Origin: Nonomuraea jiangxiensis
Lineage (GTDB): Bacteria > Actinomycetota > Actinomycetes > Streptosporangiales > Streptosporangiaceae
Direction: 5' to 3'
DNA: 64,000 nucleotides
Assembly (NCBI RefSeq): GCF_900099965.1
Contig: NZ_FNDJ01000001.1
Span: 543,766 to 607,765, forward strand
Position numbers and translations under genes: made by a program. The notes beneath the pieces were generated by a model. It did not search any database. It worked only from the letters and a program-made list of their open reading frames with translations, and had not been told where the DNA came from. Positions 14,627 through 21,616 of this stretch are shown in pieces. The first letter of the stretch is position 1. Each line of letters opens with the position of its first letter.

Positions 14627-15394
14627 TCAGGCGAGGGCGGTCTCGCCGACGAGGGCCACCCGGACGGCTCCGGGGTCCTCACCGGCCAGGGGGACGGCGA
14701 AGACCGCCGCGCCCTCCGACGCCCCGTACACCAGGAACCGCATGCCGTCCTCGTCCCACGTGTCGCGGATGTCCGAGGTGAGCCGGGCGGCCGCCGAGCA
14801 GTACGCGGGGCTGCGCCGGAGCAGGTGCAGCGAGGTCTCCAGCGGGACCTGCCGGGGTGGCGGGACGGCGAGCGGGCGGCGCAGGCGTACCAGGAGGCGG
14901 CGGGCCGGGGTGAGCCAGTAGCGGTCCAGCTCCGCCGAGAGAGCCAGCAGCACCACGACCTCCAGCACGACCAGGCCGGGCAGCGGCGGGTACGGCCCCG
15001 CCCCGATCGTGAGCAGGCCGGCGGCCAGTAGCAGGCCCGCGCGGGCGAAGGCGCGCCGGTCCGCCGGGCGCGAGTGGGCCGACAGGCAGCCGCACGACGA
15101 GGTGGGCGCGGCGACGCGGGCGTACCCGAGATAGGCGAGGAAACCGGTCGCGAGCAGGGCGGCGGCCACGCCGTCGAGCGGGTGTACCGGTGGCACCAGC
15201 AGGGCGGCGGCCACCGCGAGCTCGACCAGGCCGACCAGCCGCAGGGCCGGGACCGCGCGCGCCGGGCCGGTGAGCCGGGCCAGGGCGCTCTGCCCGGCCT
15301 GCGCCCGCATCCGGCGGCCGAACAGCTTCGCGAGGCCGGCCCAGAGGAGGAAGAGGGCGATCACGTACGGCTGTGACGCGGCGATCCCGGTCAT
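14627..15394 (-). CDS. MauE/DoxX-type redox membrane protein with C-terminal soluble domain
   Basis: A 255-residue membrane protein, last in a three-gene operon. Residues 1-160 hold about four hydrophobic helices and a SSCGC motif near residue 100 at a membrane boundary. This is the arrangement of MauE-like proteins, needed with MauD for disulfide-rich methylamine dehydrogenase small subunit. Residues about 165-255 form a soluble extension not usual in MauE. TAGGAGG precedes the ATG at 15394. The upstream gene ends 10 bp away and the first gene encodes a 14-Cys protein, so a role in forming or reshuffling that protein's disulfides is a reasonable inference. Confidence 0.72.
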   Translation of the reverse strand: MTGIAASQPYVIALFLLWAGLAKLFGRRMRAQAGQSALARLTGPARAVPALRLVGLVELAVAAALLVPPVHPLDGVAAALLATGFLAYLGYARVAAPTSSCGCLSAHSRPADRRAFARAGLLLAAGLLTIGAGPYPPLPGLVVLEVVVLLALSAELDRYWLTPARRLLVRLRRPLAVPPPRQVPLETSLHLLRRSPAYCSAAARLTSDIRDTWDEDGMRFLVYGASEGAAVFAVPLAGEDPGAVRVALVGETALA

Positions 15395-15404
15395 CGGCTG
15401 CCTC

Positions 15405-16001
15405 CTAGTGCGGGGAGAAGACGGTGGCGATGTCGACCTCGTTCGTGTCCGGCCGCCATGCGCCCAGGATCTGCACGTGCTGGCTCACTTTCAGCATCGA
15501 CAGGTCCGTGGTCGGCGGCGACTCGGAGTGCACGGCGACCGACTTGCCGGGCACCACGTGGCACAGCACTTCGTGCCCGCTGTGGTCGAGGTGGAGCGTC
15601 CGGCCGGTGATGTTCTTGATGTGGCCCTTGATGTTGACGATGTTCAGCCACACCGACTCGGCGGCGAGCACCCCGTCGGGCATGAGCACACCCCTGGCGT
15701 ACAGGCCGTCGCCCGGCTGGGCCTGGTCGAACCCGACCGGTCCGAGCTTCCACAGGCTGGTGCCGTCCACGACCCTGATGGTGTGGAACACCATGTTCGA
15801 GCCCAGGACGAGCAGCGTGTTCTCCTTGATCGAGCGGATCCGGCCCTCGGCGAAGTTCGGGTCCGGGGCGCCGGGCTCGATGTCGGGCGCCGTGGTGGCG
15901 AAGGCCGCCTCGGGGCCGAGCGAGCCCAGCGCGGTCGCGGCGACGACACTCGCGCCGCCGCCGAGCACGGCTGACTTGAGCAGATCCCGTCTACTGCGCA
16001 T
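15405..16001 (-). CDS. Tat-exported protein of unknown function, two beta-barrel-like repeats
   Basis: A 198-residue protein. The leader MRSRRDLLKSAVLGG has a twin-arginine motif and is followed by a hydrophobic, Ala-rich segment ending near AFATTA, so the mature protein should be exported folded. The mature part (about 160 residues) has two copies of a G-x-I/V-...-L-x-L-...-G-D/H pattern (EGRIRSIKENTLLVLG; KGHIKNITGRTLHLD) like the small beta domains of DUF5666-type proteins. A strong AAGGAGG lies before the ATG at 16001. It is the middle gene of a tight operon between a Cys-rich protein and a MauE-like protein. I do not recognise a function. Confidence 0.7.
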   Translation of the reverse strand: MRSRRDLLKSAVLGGGASVVAATALGSLGPEAAFATTAPDIEPGAPDPNFAEGRIRSIKENTLLVLGSNMVFHTIRVVDGTSLWKLGPVGFDQAQPGDGLYARGVLMPDGVLAAESVWLNIVNIKGHIKNITGRTLHLDHSGHEVLCHVVPGKSVAVHSESPPTTDLSMLKVSQHVQILGAWRPDTNEVDIATVFSPH

Positions 16002-16012
16002 CGCCGGCCTCC

Positions 16013-16462
16013 TTATCCCGCCGCGATCTCGACCGGCCGCAGGCCGCTGGAGAGGCTCGCGATCTGGCTGTACGCGGCCGGGGTGAGGTCGATCAGCCGG
16101 TTGTTGGCGCAGGTGGCGCCGCAGCAGCTGCGCTCGCCGCAGAACAGGTCGGTCTGCGGGCCGCAGTCGGCGATCGTGGTGACGACGCTGGCGCCGCCGC
16201 ACAGCGCCGTGGTGCGGTGACGGAAACCGCAGGTCCGGCGGGTCAGGCTGACCCCGCAGCTGTCGGGACGGGTGATGGCCCAGCACGCGTCGGAGGTGTT
16301 GGGCCAGGCGTGTTGCAGGTTTCCTGAGTTGCAGGTGCCGCAGGCTCCCTTGCCCACGGTGCTGCAGGGTCCCCATGCGGTGCCGCAGCAGAACCAGGAG
16401 ACTTCTCCCTGGACGGGGCCGAGTAAGTCGGCGGGCGGGTCGGTGGACTTGCTACGCGCCAT
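16013..16462 (-). CDS. Cys-rich protein of unknown function (14 Cys in 149 residues)
   Basis: A 149-residue protein with Cys spread from residue 25 on, including WFCCGTAWGPC, GACGTC, ERSCCGATC; it has 4 Trp and no recognisable signal peptide. Cys density, length and a MauE-like neighbour recall the light chain of methylamine dehydrogenase, which has a tryptophan-derived cofactor and many disulfides, but I see no clear alignment. The ATG at 16462 has AAGGAGG 7 nt upstream; further upstream in-frame codons are not coding-like. It is the first gene of the operon. Export might be by complexing with the Tat protein encoded next; this is inference. A metal-binding or antimicrobial function is also possible. 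Confidence 0.7.
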   Translation of the reverse strand: MARSKSTDPPADLLGPVQGEVSWFCCGTAWGPCSTVGKGACGTCNSGNLQHAWPNTSDACWAITRPDSCGVSLTRRTCGFRHRTTALCGGASVVTTIADCGPQTDLFCGERSCCGATCANNRLIDLTPAAYSQIASLSSGLRPVEIAAG

Positions 16463-16529
16463 GCGCGTCCTCCTTGGGTGAGCTCTGGACGATCTCAGCG
16501 AGGGGTTTGAAGCTTTCCGACTCGATCTA

Positions 16530-16557
16530 TGAGTACCATGTAAGGATTTTTCGTCAA
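16530..16557 (-). promoter_or_regulatory. Probable promoter of the Cys-rich/Tat/MauE operon
   Basis: On the minus strand a TTGACG -35 (16552-16557) and a TACTCA -10 (16530-16535) are 16 bp apart, in a strikingly AT-rich patch. An inverted repeat TTTTTC-N10-GAAAAA (16547-16568) overlaps the -35 box and may be an operator. Confidence 0.5.
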
Positions 16558-16824
16558 TGCCGGAAAAAGAATGATTTTGGCTGACCTTTCGCGACCTGCT
16601 CAAACCCCAGCACCGTCCCTACCGGCCGTGGTGCGGACCACCGCCGGAGGTCCACGCATCCCCGGTAGAGGCGCAGCTCCAGCAGCCGATCGGCATCGGT
16701 GAACCGCGCCCCCATCCGGTCGAGCCCGGCCGTCCCCGTGCCGCCCGGCCACGGTCACCTCGTCGTCGAGGTCGAGCACGTCGGCGAGCCCGCTCCCGCC
16801 CGCGCCACTCCCCACCTGGACCCC

Positions 16825-16913
16825 GGCCCTCGACCCGGACTTGGCCCTCGACCCGGACCGGCCCTCGACCCGGACCGGCCCTCGACCCGGACCGGCCCTC
16901 CACCCGGACCGGC
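16825..16913. repeat. 17-bp tandem repeat, about five copies
   Basis: Units of GGCCCTCGACCCGGACC start at 16843, 16860, 16877 and 16894; a first unit at 16825 has one extra base and the 16894 unit has one change. The period is not a multiple of three and no gene covers it. Confidence 0.85.
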
Positions 16914-17240
16914 ACTGCGGATCGGTCACCACGCTGAGGCGGATGCTGAGGGGCCCGCGACGTTGACCGAGGCCGCGAGACCGCGAAGATCTGGCTTCTC
17001 GGGGACAGGCCGGTTGTGCCGTCGCCCGGCAAGGGGAGTTGCGGGGGCTGCTGTCGGTGTCGCCCCGGGTCGGTTACGGCGAGGTGGCGGTCCCGAGGGG
17101 AGGGTGGCCCTTCCTCGGGCAGTGAAGTGTCAGTGGCAGAGATTAGCCTGGCACTGTCGTCCCGTCCGCGGGGCGATGCCGGGCTTCGGCTCGGCCCGAT
17201 GTCATGGACGTCCCAGCGCTCGACCGGAGGGGAAACGATC

Positions 17241-17867
17241 GTGGGGTCTTTCGCAGGCGGAGGGCTGCCACCGGATGACGTCGTCGTCACGGCCCTGCGC
17301 GCCGGCGACGAGGCGATGTTCGCGACGCTGCTCGACACCTGGTCCGGAGGGATGTTGCGGGTGGCGAGATCCTACGTGTCCACCGACCACTCCGCGGAGG
17401 AGGTCGTCCAGGACACGTGGCTCGCGGTCATCGGCGGAATCGACGGTTTCGAGGGCCGCTCCTCGGTGAAGACATGGGTTTACCGGATTCTGGTCAACAC
17501 GGCGAAGAAACGCGGTGTGCGCGAGAGCCGCACGCTTCCGTGGAGCGCATTCGAGCAGGACGGCGTCCCGGTCACGGAGTTCGGGACGGGGGACGGCTGG
17601 AAGGAGGCCGCCGCGGTCTGGCCCTCGCCCGAGGGTGAGGCGCTGGCCTCGGAGGTGCGCAGGCTGATCGCGGAGGCCCTGGGCCGGCTGCCGCCCCGGC
17701 AGCGCATCGTGATCACCCTGCGTGACGTGGAAGGGTGCACGTCCGACGAGGTGTGCGAGATCCTCGAGATCTCCGCCGCCAATCAGCGGGTCCTGCTGCA
17801 CCGCGCCCGTACTACGGTGCGCGGCCGGCTGGCCGGCTACTTCGAGTCCGTGAAGCAACCGGAGTAG
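17241..17867 (+). CDS. ECF-type RNA polymerase sigma factor
   Basis: A 208-residue sigma-70-family factor. Region 2 lies at residues about 20-85 (FATLLDTWSGGMLRVARSYV, EEVVQDTWLAVIGGIDGFEGRSSVKTWVYRILVNTAKKR) and region 4 at about 140-200 (LGRLPPRQRIVITLRDVEGCTSDEVCEILEIS, then a helix with NQRVLLHRAR). GTG 17241 follows GGAGGGG; upstream in-frame sequence is not coding-like. A small zinc-finger anti-sigma-like gene follows 66 bp later on the same strand, so the pair should form a sigma/anti-sigma switch in the cytoplasm, probably responding to redox or metal. Confidence 0.92.
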   Translation: MGSFAGGGLPPDDVVVTALRAGDEAMFATLLDTWSGGMLRVARSYVSTDHSAEEVVQDTWLAVIGGIDGFEGRSSVKTWVYRILVNTAKKRGVRESRTLPWSAFEQDGVPVTEFGTGDGWKEAAAVWPSPEGEALASEVRRLIAEALGRLPPRQRIVITLRDVEGCTSDEVCEILEISAANQRVLLHRARTTVRGRLAGYFESVKQPE

Positions 17868-17910: not shown

Positions 17911-17965
17911 GTGAAACGGTTCATTCCCCCTAGATGAAGGCGGTCAACGTCGTGAAGCGGTTCAC
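17911..17965. promoter_or_regulatory. Two copies of GTGAA-N4-TTCA(C/T) at the anti-sigma start
   Basis: GTGAA-ACGG-TTCAT (17911-17924) and the perfect palindrome GTGAA-GCGG-TTCAC (17952-17965) are 41 bp apart and flank the anti-sigma ATG at 17934. The second is inside the coding sequence. They could be operator sites; a partial local duplication is the other reading. Confidence 0.3.
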
Positions 17966-18191
17966 CTGCGACGAACTGGTGGAACTCATCACCGCCTACC
18001 TTGACGATGCCCTCGACCAGCCGGAGCGGGAGGGCGTACAGGTGCACCTGGCGGCCTGTGCCGGGTGCGGGCGTCACTTCGAGCAGTTCCGCGCCACCAT
18101 CGACGCCCTCGGCGACCCGCTGCCGGAGAAGCTGCCCACCGACGTACGCGACCGGCTCATGTCCGCGTTCCGCGAACGCCATCGGCCCTGA
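17934..18191 (+). CDS. Soluble zinc-finger anti-sigma factor (HC2/ZAS type)
   Basis: An 85-residue cytoplasmic protein with HLAACAGC, the H-x3-C-x2-C zinc motif of ZAS anti-sigma factors, preceded by CDELVELITAYLDDALDQPER, the usual N-terminal helix. It has no membrane segment, so it is of the soluble, RsrA-like size class, in which thiol oxidation releases the sigma factor. It directly follows the ECF sigma gene, its likely partner. The ATG at 17934 lacks a clear ribosome-binding site; GTG 17952 is an alternative start. Confidence 0.82.
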   Translation: MKAVNVVKRFTCDELVELITAYLDDALDQPEREGVQVHLAACAGCGRHFEQFRATIDALGDPLPEKLPTDVRDRLMSAFRERHRP

Positions 18192-18229: not shown

Positions 18230-18540
18230 CGGTGTGTGAGGCCCGCTGCATGAGGCCCGATCTGTGAGGCCACGGGGACGTGGTGCCCAGTGTGTGAGAG
18301 CCGCTGCGATGTGGGTGCCGATGTGAGGCCCGCAGGGATGCGGTCCCCAGTGTGTGAGGCCCGCAGGGATGCGGTCCCCAGTGTGTGAGGCCCGCAGGGA
18401 TGTGGTGCCCGGTGTGTGAGGGCCGCTGGGATGTGGGTGCCCGGTGTGAGGCTGGCAGGGATGTGGTGCCCGCTGCGTGAGGCCCATGGGGACCTGGTGC
18501 CTGGTGTGTGGGCGCGCGGGGATGTGATGCCCTGGTCGTG
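18230..18540. repeat. 31-bp tandem repeat array, about ten degenerate copies
   Basis: Units beginning GTGAGG recur at 18236, 18264, 18294, 18323, 18354, 18385, 18416, 18446, 18477 and 18508, mostly 31 bp apart. The consensus runs GTGAGGCCCGCAGGGATG, then TGGTGCCC. The copies are contiguous with no unique spacers, which rules out CRISPR. The array fills the gap between two facing anti-sigma-like genes; no gene crosses it convincingly. Confidence 0.85.
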
Positions 18541-19061: not shown

Positions 19062-20327
19062 ATGATCGGTTTGACGGCCGAGGGCACGCCGCTTCGGGAC
19101 ACCTCCGAGGTGGCGGACTTCGCCAGCCGCTGCTTCCGTCCCGCCCCAGGGGACCGGGTGGGCGTCGAGCTGGAGTTCCTGGTCTTCGACAATGCGGTTT
19201 TCCACAGCGGGGCGGCGGCCGGTCACGTTCCGCTGACCCGGGTCGAACAAGCCATGCCCGCCGTGCTCCCGGGCGGCAGCCGGGTGACGTTCGAGCCGGG
19301 CGGCCAGCTCGAACTGTCGGGACCGGCGGCCCCGCTCCAGGACGCGCTGAACCTCCTGGCCGCCGACGTGACCGCCGTACGCGAGGCGCTGGGCGCGGCC
19401 GGGCTGACCCCGGTCGGGATCGGCCTCGACCCGGTACGCCCCGCCCGCCGCCAGCTCCACCTGCCCCGCTACGACGCGATGGCCGAGTTCCTCGGCGTGC
19501 CGTACGGGCCGCTGATGATGTGCTCGACCGCGTCCGTCCAGGTCAACCTGGACCTGGGCGAGCGGCCCGCGGAGCGCTGGGAGCGGGCGCACGCGCTCGG
19601 CCCGGTGCTGCTGGCGGCCTTCGCCAACTCGCCGCTCAGCGGCGGCCGTCCGTGCGGCTGGATGTCGGGCCGCCAGGCCGTCTGGGACCGCCTCGACCGC
19701 ACCAGGACGGCCCCGGTGCCCGCCTCCGGCGACCCCGCCGCCGACTGGGCCGAATACCTGCTCGACGCCCGGCTCATGCTCGTACGCGAGGGCGAGGAGC
19801 GCTATCGCCCGGTCCTGGACGGCTCGACGTTCCGCGACTGGCTGGCGGGCGGTGGCGAGCGCCGGCCCACCGCCGAGGACCTGGCCTACCACGCCTCCAC
19901 GGTCTTCCCCCCGGTACGCCCCCGGGGCTGGCTGGAGATCCGCTACCTCGACGCCCAGCACCCGGAGGTATGGCCGGTGTGCGCGGCCGTGACCCACGCC
20001 CTCGTCACCGACGACCGGGCCGCCGACGCCGCGCTCGCGGCCGTGGACCGGCACCTGCCGCTCCGGGGGCCGCACCGGGAGGCGTGGGAGGCGGCGACGC
20101 GGTGCGGCCTGACCGAGCCGCGCCTGGCCAGGGCCGCGGAGGCGTGCTTCCGCGCCGCGCTGGAGGCGCTGCCGCGCCTGGGCGCGAGCCCCGGCCTGGT
20201 CGGCAAGGTGGCGGCGTTCGCCGACCGGTACGTGACCCCCGGCCGCTCACCGGCGGCCGACCTGTTGGACGACCCGATGCCGGGACGGCGCGTCCCGGTC
20301 TGGCTGAACGACGAAGGACGGCAATGA
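19062..20327 (+). CDS. egtA: Glutamate-cysteine ligase of ergothioneine biosynthesis
   Basis: A 421-residue enzyme that makes gamma-glutamylcysteine from Glu and Cys with ATP, supplying the sulfur donor for EgtB. It shows family landmarks GVELEFLVFD, TFEPGGQLELSG and MMCSTASVQVNLD of the GCS2/EgtA fold, and WLEIRYLDAQ near the C-terminus. GGGGAG precedes the ATG. It is the first gene of egtABCDE and overlaps egtB by ATGA. A TATACG/TAGACC -10-like stretch lies 20-40 bp upstream, so the operon promoter is probably there. Confidence 0.95.
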   Translation: MIGLTAEGTPLRDTSEVADFASRCFRPAPGDRVGVELEFLVFDNAVFHSGAAAGHVPLTRVEQAMPAVLPGGSRVTFEPGGQLELSGPAAPLQDALNLLAADVTAVREALGAAGLTPVGIGLDPVRPARRQLHLPRYDAMAEFLGVPYGPLMMCSTASVQVNLDLGERPAERWERAHALGPVLLAAFANSPLSGGRPCGWMSGRQAVWDRLDRTRTAPVPASGDPAADWAEYLLDARLMLVREGEERYRPVLDGSTFRDWLAGGGERRPTAEDLAYHASTVFPPVRPRGWLEIRYLDAQHPEVWPVCAAVTHALVTDDRAADAALAAVDRHLPLRGPHREAWEAATRCGLTEPRLARAAEACFRAALEALPRLGASPGLVGKVAAFADRYVTPGRSPAADLLDDPMPGRRVPVWLNDEGRQ

Positions 20328-21616
20328 ACGACTTGAAGGAACGCATAGCGGCCGAGCTCATCGCCGTGCGCGACCGGTCACTGGCCTATACGGCGGCCGA
20401 GGACGACATGCTGGTGCGCCAGCACTCGCCGCTGATGTCGCCACTGGTGTGGGACCTGGCCCACGTCGGGAACTACGAGGAACTGTGGGTGCTGCGCGCC
20501 GCCGCGGGCATCGAGCCGCTGCGCCCCGAGATCGACGACATCTACGACGCGTTCAAGACCCCGCGCAAGGACCGCCCCAGCCTGCCCTTCCTGGGCCCGG
20601 AGGAGGCCCGCCGCTACATCGGCGGCGTGCGCGGGCGGGTGCTCGACGTCCTCGACGCGATCGACCTGGACGGTCCCTCCCCGCTGCACCGCGACGGCTT
20701 CGTGTTCGGCCTGGTGATCCAGCACGAGCACCAGCACGACGAGACCATGCTCGCCACGCTCCAGCTCTCCGGCCAGCCCGGCCTGGTACGCGAGGGCGCC
20801 CTGCCCCCGGGCCGGAACGCGGGCTCCGAGGAGGTGTACGTGCCCGCGGGCTCCTTCCTCATGGGCACCGACACGCTGGCCTGGGCCTACGACAACGAGC
20901 GGCCCGCGTACCGGGTGGACCTGCCCGCGTACTGGATCGACCGGCTGCCCGTCGGCAACCGCGCCTACGCGGCGTTCATCGAGGCCGGCGGCTACGACGA
21001 CCCGCGCTGGTGGAGCACGGAGGGCTGGGCGTGGCGGCAGCGCGGCGGCGTCACCGCCCCGCTGTTCTGGACCAGGGACGGCGACACCTGGTGGCGCACC
21101 CGGTTCGGCCGCACCGAGCCCGTCCCGATGGACGAGCCGGTCCAGCACGTGAGCTGGTACGAGGCCGACGCCTACGCCCGCTGGGCGGGCAAGCGGCTGC
21201 CCACCGAGGCCGAGTGGGAGAAGGCATGCGGCTGGGACCCGGCGGCCGGGCGGGCCCGCCGCTATCCGTGGGGCGAGCAGGACCCCGGACCCGACCGCGC
21301 GAACCTCGGCCACCGCGCCGCCCACCCCGCGCCGCTGGGCGCCTACCCCGCCGGGGCCAGCGCGTACGGGGCCGAGCAGATGGTCGGGGACGTGTGGGAG
21401 TGGACCTCGTCCTGGTTCCAGCCCTATCCCGGCTTCCGCGCCTTCCCGTACCCGGAGTACAGCGAGGTGTTCTTCGGCCAGGAGTACCGGGTGCTGCGCG
21501 GCGGCTCGTGGGCGGCCGACCCGGCGGCGGTGCGGACCACGTTCCGGAACTGGGACTATCCGATCCGGCGGCAGATCTTCACCGGTTTCCGCTGCGCGCG
21601 TTCGGAGCCGGTCTGA
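20324..21616 (+). CDS. egtB: Sulfoxide synthase EgtB (non-haem iron)
   Basis: A 430-residue iron enzyme that joins gamma-glutamylcysteine to hercynine with O2 to give the sulfoxide. Residues 1-150 form the DinB-like helical domain with iron ligands His47 (DLAHVGNYEE), His134 and His138 (HEHQHDET). Residues about 165-430 are the formylglycine-enzyme-like domain (VPAGSFLMGTD, LPTEAEWEKAC, DVWEWTSSWF, VLRGGSW, TGFRCAR). The ATG overlaps the egtA stop (ATGA), and egtC begins on the stop codon, so expression is coupled. Confidence 0.97.
   Translation: MNDLKERIAAELIAVRDRSLAYTAAEDDMLVRQHSPLMSPLVWDLAHVGNYEELWVLRAAAGIEPLRPEIDDIYDAFKTPRKDRPSLPFLGPEEARRYIGGVRGRVLDVLDAIDLDGPSPLHRDGFVFGLVIQHEHQHDETMLATLQLSGQPGLVREGALPPGRNAGSEEVYVPAGSFLMGTDTLAWAYDNERPAYRVDLPAYWIDRLPVGNRAYAAFIEAGGYDDPRWWSTEGWAWRQRGGVTAPLFWTRDGDTWWRTRFGRTEPVPMDEPVQHVSWYEADAYARWAGKRLPTEAEWEKACGWDPAAGRARRYPWGEQDPGPDRANLGHRAAHPAPLGAYPAGASAYGAEQMVGDVWEWTSSWFQPYPGFRAFPYPEYSEVFFGQEYRVLRGGSWAADPAAVRTTFRNWDYPIRRQIFTGFRCARSEPV

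Follow-up and report, generated by a model that had tools for sequence, protein, structure and literature searches.

A conserved actinobacterial operon for a Cys-rich protein, a Tat-signal protein and a MauE-like membrane protein: a candidate route for building and exporting a disulfide-stapled barrel

The Tat pathway carries folded proteins. The light chain of methylamine dehydrogenase is exported, and its maturation by the MauE/MauD system sets a MauE-family membrane protein beside a small, very Cys-rich protein. Kiwellin, loosenin, expansin, barwin-like proteins, the Streptomyces papain inhibitor SPI and the RlpA-like PA4485 mostly leave the cell with signal peptides of their own, and the extracellular members of this group are disulfide-bonded. 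In the Streptomyces tyrosinase operon the cargo MelC2 has no signal peptide and hitchhikes on MelC1, which carries a Tat signal, and the core homologue MelD2 is intracellular, according to the passages of PMC2758597 on these proteins. It has been speculated that MauE assists in forming the disulfides of the methylamine dehydrogenase beta-subunit, and MauE-linked families have been proposed as RiPPs by decRiPPter, including Streptomyces candidates with at least 8 Cys (PMC7794033, in the parts that treat MauE).

Here we describe three genes, referred to as cys, tat and mau, from Nonomuraea jiangxiensis; they lie in the window, which is the whole stretch of 64,000 nucleotides that was analysed. 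Like MelC1/MelC2, the trio joins a signal-less cargo and a small Tat-signal helper within one operon, and like MelC/MelD it has a patchy exported form, here a predicted one, next to a core non-secreted form (PMC2758597, same passages). The proteins themselves are unrelated: a tyrosinase and a copper helper there, a 14-Cys protein, a predicted OB-type carrier and a MauE-like protein here. Hitchhiking has been shown for MelC2 and is only predicted for cys. In contrast to the MauE/MauD system, the predicted fold of the client is a double-psi beta-barrel, mau has an extra C-terminal domain, and a Pfam scan of five window neighbours gave no MauD, methylamine dehydrogenase subunit or thioredoxin. 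What the decRiPPter families share with the trio is that, in actinobacteria, MauE adjoins a gene whose product has at least 8 Cys; they differ in that the precursors are below 100 aa and in that the parts of PMC7794033 dealing with them mention no Tat partner. From the barrel proteins listed above, cys differs by its 14-Cys pattern and an N-terminal Cys-rich insert. No published description of the trio was found among the titles and abstract openings listed by the literature searches, in keeping with the original prediction, which had not recognised a described system. Within the literature searched the trio is undescribed, and it would be a form of hitchhiker Tat export that brings along a dedicated redox partner of the MauE type.

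The operon and its surroundings

Three packed minus-strand genes, each with a strong ribosome-binding site, had been described from the sequence, and both their positions and their spacing are confirmed, with gaps of 11 bp between cys and tat and 10 bp between tat and mau (Table 1). The TTGACG/TACTCA block proposed upstream is also present: TTGACGAA and TTACATG are conserved in an alignment of 34 upstream regions, though a strict sigma-70 match was not obtained for the block.

Table 1. Positions of the features of the cys-tat-mau locus in the window
Feature	Position	Strand	Description
cys	16013..16462	(-)	149 aa, 14 Cys (P0001)
tat	15405..16001	(-)	198 aa (P0002)
mau	14627..15394	(-)	255 aa, MauE/DoxX-type membrane protein (P0003)
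Ribosome-binding site of cys, AAGGAGG	16469..16475	(-)	Read from the sequence
Ribosome-binding site of tat, AAGGAGG	16008..16014	(-)	Read from the sequence
Ribosome-binding site of mau, AGGAGG	15401..15406	(-)	Read from the sequence
Promoter-like block, TTGACG-N16-TACTCA	16530..16557	(-)	Upstream of cys
Predicted Tat-type signal peptide of tat, RRDLLKSAVLGGG...AFA	15897..16001	(-)	Residues ~1-35
CGC codons of mau (C101-G102-C103)	15086..15094	(-)	Invariant in 29 sequences of alignment A4
ECF-type sigma factor	17016-17867		Upstream of the trio; Pfam
zf-HC2 anti-sigma-type gene	17934-18191		Upstream of the trio; Pfam

The five neighbours in the window were assigned by Pfam to a regulator, a short-chain dehydrogenase, a sigma factor, an anti-sigma-type protein and a GCS2 ligase. 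A link between the trio and the ECF sigma/zf-HC2 pair was considered and dropped; the pair is not among the recurring flank families listed, as judged by eye. Tandem repeats occur upstream of the trio (16823-16913, a 17-bp unit in 5.3 copies) and behind the anti-sigma gene (18230-18532, units of ~31/61 bp). The GCS2-type glutamate-cysteine ligase (Pfam) is followed by a further gene, which we take to be similar to ergothioneine EgtB, the two together occupying 19062-21616. A role in anti-phage defence was rejected, as none of five proteins had a PADLOC match at E values up to 0.01. A scan of viral contigs gave 24 pattern matches, and no relative was among them.

A co-inherited set of genes

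The cys-tat-mau operon is a real, conserved unit. When species genomes were scanned with an alignment of 27 cys sequences, 196 matches were obtained, of which 80 loci were fetched; the three genes follow one another in this order and on one strand in 79 of these 80. The sole locus without a mau match (L044) meets its contig end ~90 bases past tat. Fetched trio loci come from Streptosporangiaceae, Kribbella, Micromonosporaceae and Stackebrandtia. The full trio was also found in a second family of the order, at loci L112 and L113, and in a different family of the class, at loci L161 and L162; several loci of a later search from genomes already among the 80 were not added to the 79. When the trio itself and an ORF antisense to it are set aside, the most frequent family of flanking genes has 17 members by crude gene calls, compared with 72 for tat.

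Within the genus, 33 of the 53 other genomes hold intact cys together with tat and 20 hold neither; none has cys only or tat only. This count treats as cys-less both G007, which has a cys fragment with a stop, and G036, which has a 1.6e-4 match. The genus presence lists set aside G058, with its weak tat match (6.9e-6); there cys is absent and a mau-like gene (6.0e-66) adjoins a fused gene of the kind treated below. A trio-type mau accompanies intact cys in 35 of 37 relatives, and one of the two exceptions (G002) has a contig that ends 90 bases past tat, where mau would follow. G059 (L111) carries cys and tat with no mau nearby nor genome-wide at E 1e-10. In G028 both mau pieces lie within one open frame.

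The order and genus counts support the proposal that the trio forms a co-inherited set, and in the loci and genomes read, relatives of cys are not regularly found without the other two genes. The exceptions are the locus lacking mau (L111), a wrecked cassette in G007 (L114) that has lost tat and retains the cys fragment together with a small remnant of the C-terminus of mau, and a locus in G581 (L149) where cys has lost its first part. Damage does not always hit the whole set, because tat and mau are intact at L149 despite the truncated cys. The wrecked cassette (G007:C32:73500-81000) adjoins what looks by eye like a TnpB-type transposase gene.

In wider sampling, the order sample has cys in 36 of 249 genomes (including the fragments in G007 and G581), the class sample in 5 of 394 and the phylum sample in 3 of 396, these being the genome studied here and two weak matches (3.0e-4 and 5.5e-4); the mau model matched 1 of the 396. 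Divergent copies may have been missed in these wider samples because scoring was limited to 6 to 16 candidates from each genome. Mirror-tree correlations over 74 sequences were 0.81, 0.82 and 0.93; shared ancestry explains them as much as linkage does, and they were not counted as evidence.

The three proteins and a fused relative

The AlphaFold2 model of cys is a kiwellin/loosenin/expansin-like double-psi beta-barrel, and Pfam score and fold both place the protein with double-psi beta-barrel/RlpA-like domains (PF03330). Its fold relatives are kiwellin, loosenin, expansin D1, barwin-like proteins, SPI and PA4485, at sequence identities of 15-30%. The second domain of expansin (CBM63) is absent, the 149 residues being taken up by the barrel and the N-terminal insert. 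For conservation we used 94 homologues chosen from the best 120 of 136; four loci with mis-called starts (L066, L080, L083, L084) were left out of the 77 locus-derived cys rows. All 14 Cys are conserved across homologues, and 54 of the 94 have 15, so that one thiol would remain free in these, a point against the reading favoured below. Conservation covers mainly residues 20-143, most of the length, with no N-terminal leader pattern. D99 and D125, invariant in the 94, align with the AD and IDMTP motifs of loosenin; the functional Asp residues of expansin are given as D71 and D82 of BsEXLX1 in the section of PMC11040781 on that protein. The Cys spacing had suggested a comparison with the light chain of methylamine dehydrogenase, which came out negative: cys has no Pfam or PDB sequence match to it at E values up to 1, and the modelled fold is a different one. 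Nor did the fold search of the cys model list the light-chain fold, which proves nothing by itself.

That cys has no signal peptide was borne out in so far as none is recognisable by hydropathy in the 94 homologues, whose N-termini all lack a hydrophobic core of the kind present in tat. Over the first 50 residues, the strongest 17-residue hydropathy reaches at most 1.22 in cys (mean 0.61, n = 94) and at least 1.31 in tat (mean 1.61, n = 77), a gap that is clear in the means and narrow at the edges (1.22 vs. 1.31). The Tat signal assigned to the second protein likewise stands: the twin-arginine (RR) motif is present in all 77 tat homologues, chosen from the best 120 of 619. The pair thus has the make-up of a hitchhiker pair as judged by hydropathy and motif, with a cys that lacks a signal peptide, a tat with a Tat-type signal and a shared operon. 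The part of tat that follows the signal is predicted to form two OB-type domains (AF2 model with pLDDT 80.3, OB matches). The homologues contain no Cys (55 of 77) or one (22 of 77), and many tat relatives are annotated as "cell wall protein" in databases. Against DUF5666 (PF18914), tat scores 14.6 bits and misses the Pfam gathering score of 27; the closest relative tested reaches 26.7 bits, and some relatives carry DUF5666 in precomputed annotation.

The third protein is, as described, of MauE/DoxX type with an unusual C-terminal domain. It matches Pfam MauE (PF07291) over residues 8-128 (2e-15; 57.7 bits against a gathering score of 27) and has five likely TM helices followed by the extra domain (~residues 165-255), within which an automatic pick placed a sixth, weak hydrophobic peak (220-236). 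K+R residues are biased towards the side of the CGC motif, with a mean of 13.1 on its three loops (C-terminal stretch included) and of 0.68 on the other side, in the same direction in 78 of 78 mau homologues. Because of this charge bias, the positive-inside rule predicts that the CGC and the C-terminal domain face the cytoplasm. Two other MauE paralogues from the same genome (L139 on C65, L140 on C41) show the same bias, with a CxC on an Arg-rich loop that is predicted to be cytoplasmic; such a position of the CxC may therefore hold in general and be of little weight for this operon. A further DoxX/MauE protein (L138, C40) adjoins a protein that looks DsbA-like by eye and shows no clear charge bias. 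Loci with weak MauE matches (L132-L135) have neither the trio nor the fused gene.

A second MauE encoded in this genome (C16:173445-174194) shares the C-terminal domain of mau. A gene for a 315-aa fused protein (L120:8478-9425) precedes it with a start/stop overlap of four bases, and the two span L120:8478-10222 (G000:C16). All 13 loci read (L116, L120-L130, L136) have the fused gene beside a second-type MauE, although the contig of L125 ends within the locus; alignment A5 omits L129, as the stretch used held a stop codon. The N-terminal part of the fused protein matches the tat profile, RR start included, at E 1.6e-9 and 96% probability. The match of its Cys-rich, possibly barrel-like C-terminal part to the second half of cys (E 4e-4, 35% probability) is suggestive only, and this part has no Pfam match, DPBB included. 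The protein is a probable natural fusion of tat-like and Cys-rich parts, strongly related on the side of tat and weakly on that of cys. Fused proteins share an invariant V..RR.L..A.LG motif followed by only ~8 hydrophobic residues, and look cytoplasmic because this stretch is too short for an ordinary signal peptide. In the form of the genome studied here a CGC-x5-CxxCxxC stretch resembles a metal site. A gene that by eye is ECF-sigma-like diverges from the fused gene (L120:7762-8259; L116:2619-3206) and is a possible regulator.

The second-type MauE occurs in 58 of 59 genomes of the family (the exception is G055). Of 17 trio-bearing genomes searched, 3, from Thermoactinospora, Streptosporangium and Sphaerisporangium, have the fused form, and the other 14 have none at E 1e-5. 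A near-universal fused form that looks internal thus appears to coexist with a patchy split form bearing what looks like a full Tat-type signal.

Possible roles of the trio

We favour, at a probability of roughly 0.45, a role of the trio in making and exporting a disulfide-stapled barrel, in which cys would be oxidised at the membrane by mau from the cytoplasmic side and would then hitchhike on tat, for which MelC2 on MelC1 is the precedent. The export part of the argument is that cys lacks a hydrophobic core and that tat has RR in every homologue, which makes the proposed carrier role of tat plausible at the level of sequence. The redox part is the contrast of 14 conserved Cys in cys with none or one in tat, next to the invariant CGC of mau; the probable fusion argues for contact between tat and cys. 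That MauE aids disulfide formation, as had been suggested, is likewise plausible, since an invariant CGC beside a Cys-rich partner would suit a thiol oxidant. Read as oxidation after export, the suggestion fares worse: with the CGC predicted to be cytoplasmic in 78 of 78 homologues, the better supported order has cys oxidised first and exported afterwards. This order is proposed on two grounds, the predicted inward position of the CGC and the transport of folded proteins by Tat. Mau would oxidise the cys thiols at the cytoplasmic face and may pass the electrons to the membrane quinone; tat would bind the folded cys, with the C-terminal domain of mau perhaps docking cys, tat, or both, and the cys-tat complex would leave through Tat. 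Outside, by analogy with the expansin and loosenin barrels, cys may act on cell-wall or other polysaccharide. Stable cytoplasmic disulfides would be unusual, because the cytoplasm is reducing, which counts against this explanation, and the Cys of cys could bind metal instead of forming disulfides.

The opposite order, in which tat exports cys reduced or loosely folded and mau with an outward CGC, or another oxidase outside, then makes the disulfides, would agree with the speculated action of MauE on methylamine dehydrogenase (PMC7794033, as above), and the DoxX/MauE protein beside the DsbA-like one in the same genome would be a setting for such chemistry, with its unclear charge bias. We regard this order as unlikely, given that Tat cargo is folded, that the charge bias places CGC and C-terminal domain inside throughout the homologues, and that neither thioredoxin nor MauD was found among the five neighbours scanned. 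A cytoplasmic redox or metal module is similarly improbable: cys would stay inside, its Cys binding metal or sensing redox, with mau as its partner and tat a separate wall protein. The lack of a recognisable signal peptide in cys fits such a module, as do the fused paralogue, which keeps its RR and looks cytoplasmic with the short hydrophobic stretch that follows, and the metal-site-like stretch of the fused form. It sits poorly with the extracellular proteins among the fold relatives, with the fact that tat and intact cys are never apart in the 53 same-genus genomes, and with the tat-cys contact for which the probable fusion argues.

Mere co-location, with three genes that share a promoter and act separately, is very unlikely. 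Co-occurrence inside one genus is not phylogenetically independent, and L149 keeps tat and mau beside a truncated cys; against this, the gene order is held across several families in mostly different surroundings, G007 lost nearly the whole set, and tat-like and Cys-rich parts are probably fused elsewhere. We give least weight to the idea that cys is a RiPP-type precursor modified by mau, in the manner of the MauE-linked Streptomyces candidates, and would be surprised if it held. It draws on the occurrence of MauE beside small Cys-rich proteins in actinobacteria, but decRiPPter considered proteins below 100 aa (PMC7794033, same parts). Cys has 149 aa and is conserved over most of them, unlike a short precursor with a conserved leader and a variable core, and there is no protease or transporter among the five window neighbours scanned.

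Returning to oxidation before Tat export, a more detailed path can be drawn, which is possible but doubtful. A quinone-linked MauE would staple the barrel inside, its C-terminal domain would hand the folded product to the OB-fold carrier, and the complex would exit through Tat; a gene duplicate would have become an internal carrier-cargo fusion that lost the second half of its Tat signal and would stand to the split form as MelD does to MelC.

If oxidation before export is correct, the side on which MauE acts becomes directly testable, and the orientation of MauE proteins in general merits scrutiny given the bias shared by the two paralogues. The trio would be a self-contained route to build and export a disulfide-stapled protein, and possibly a three-gene tool for the secretion of disulfide proteins. 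It would offer a natural solution to the use of Tat by a disulfide-rich protein, namely that an inward-facing membrane oxidase acts first, and would provide a function for a branch of the MauE/DoxX family and for many actinobacterial proteins whose sole annotation at present is "cell wall protein" or "RlpA-like".
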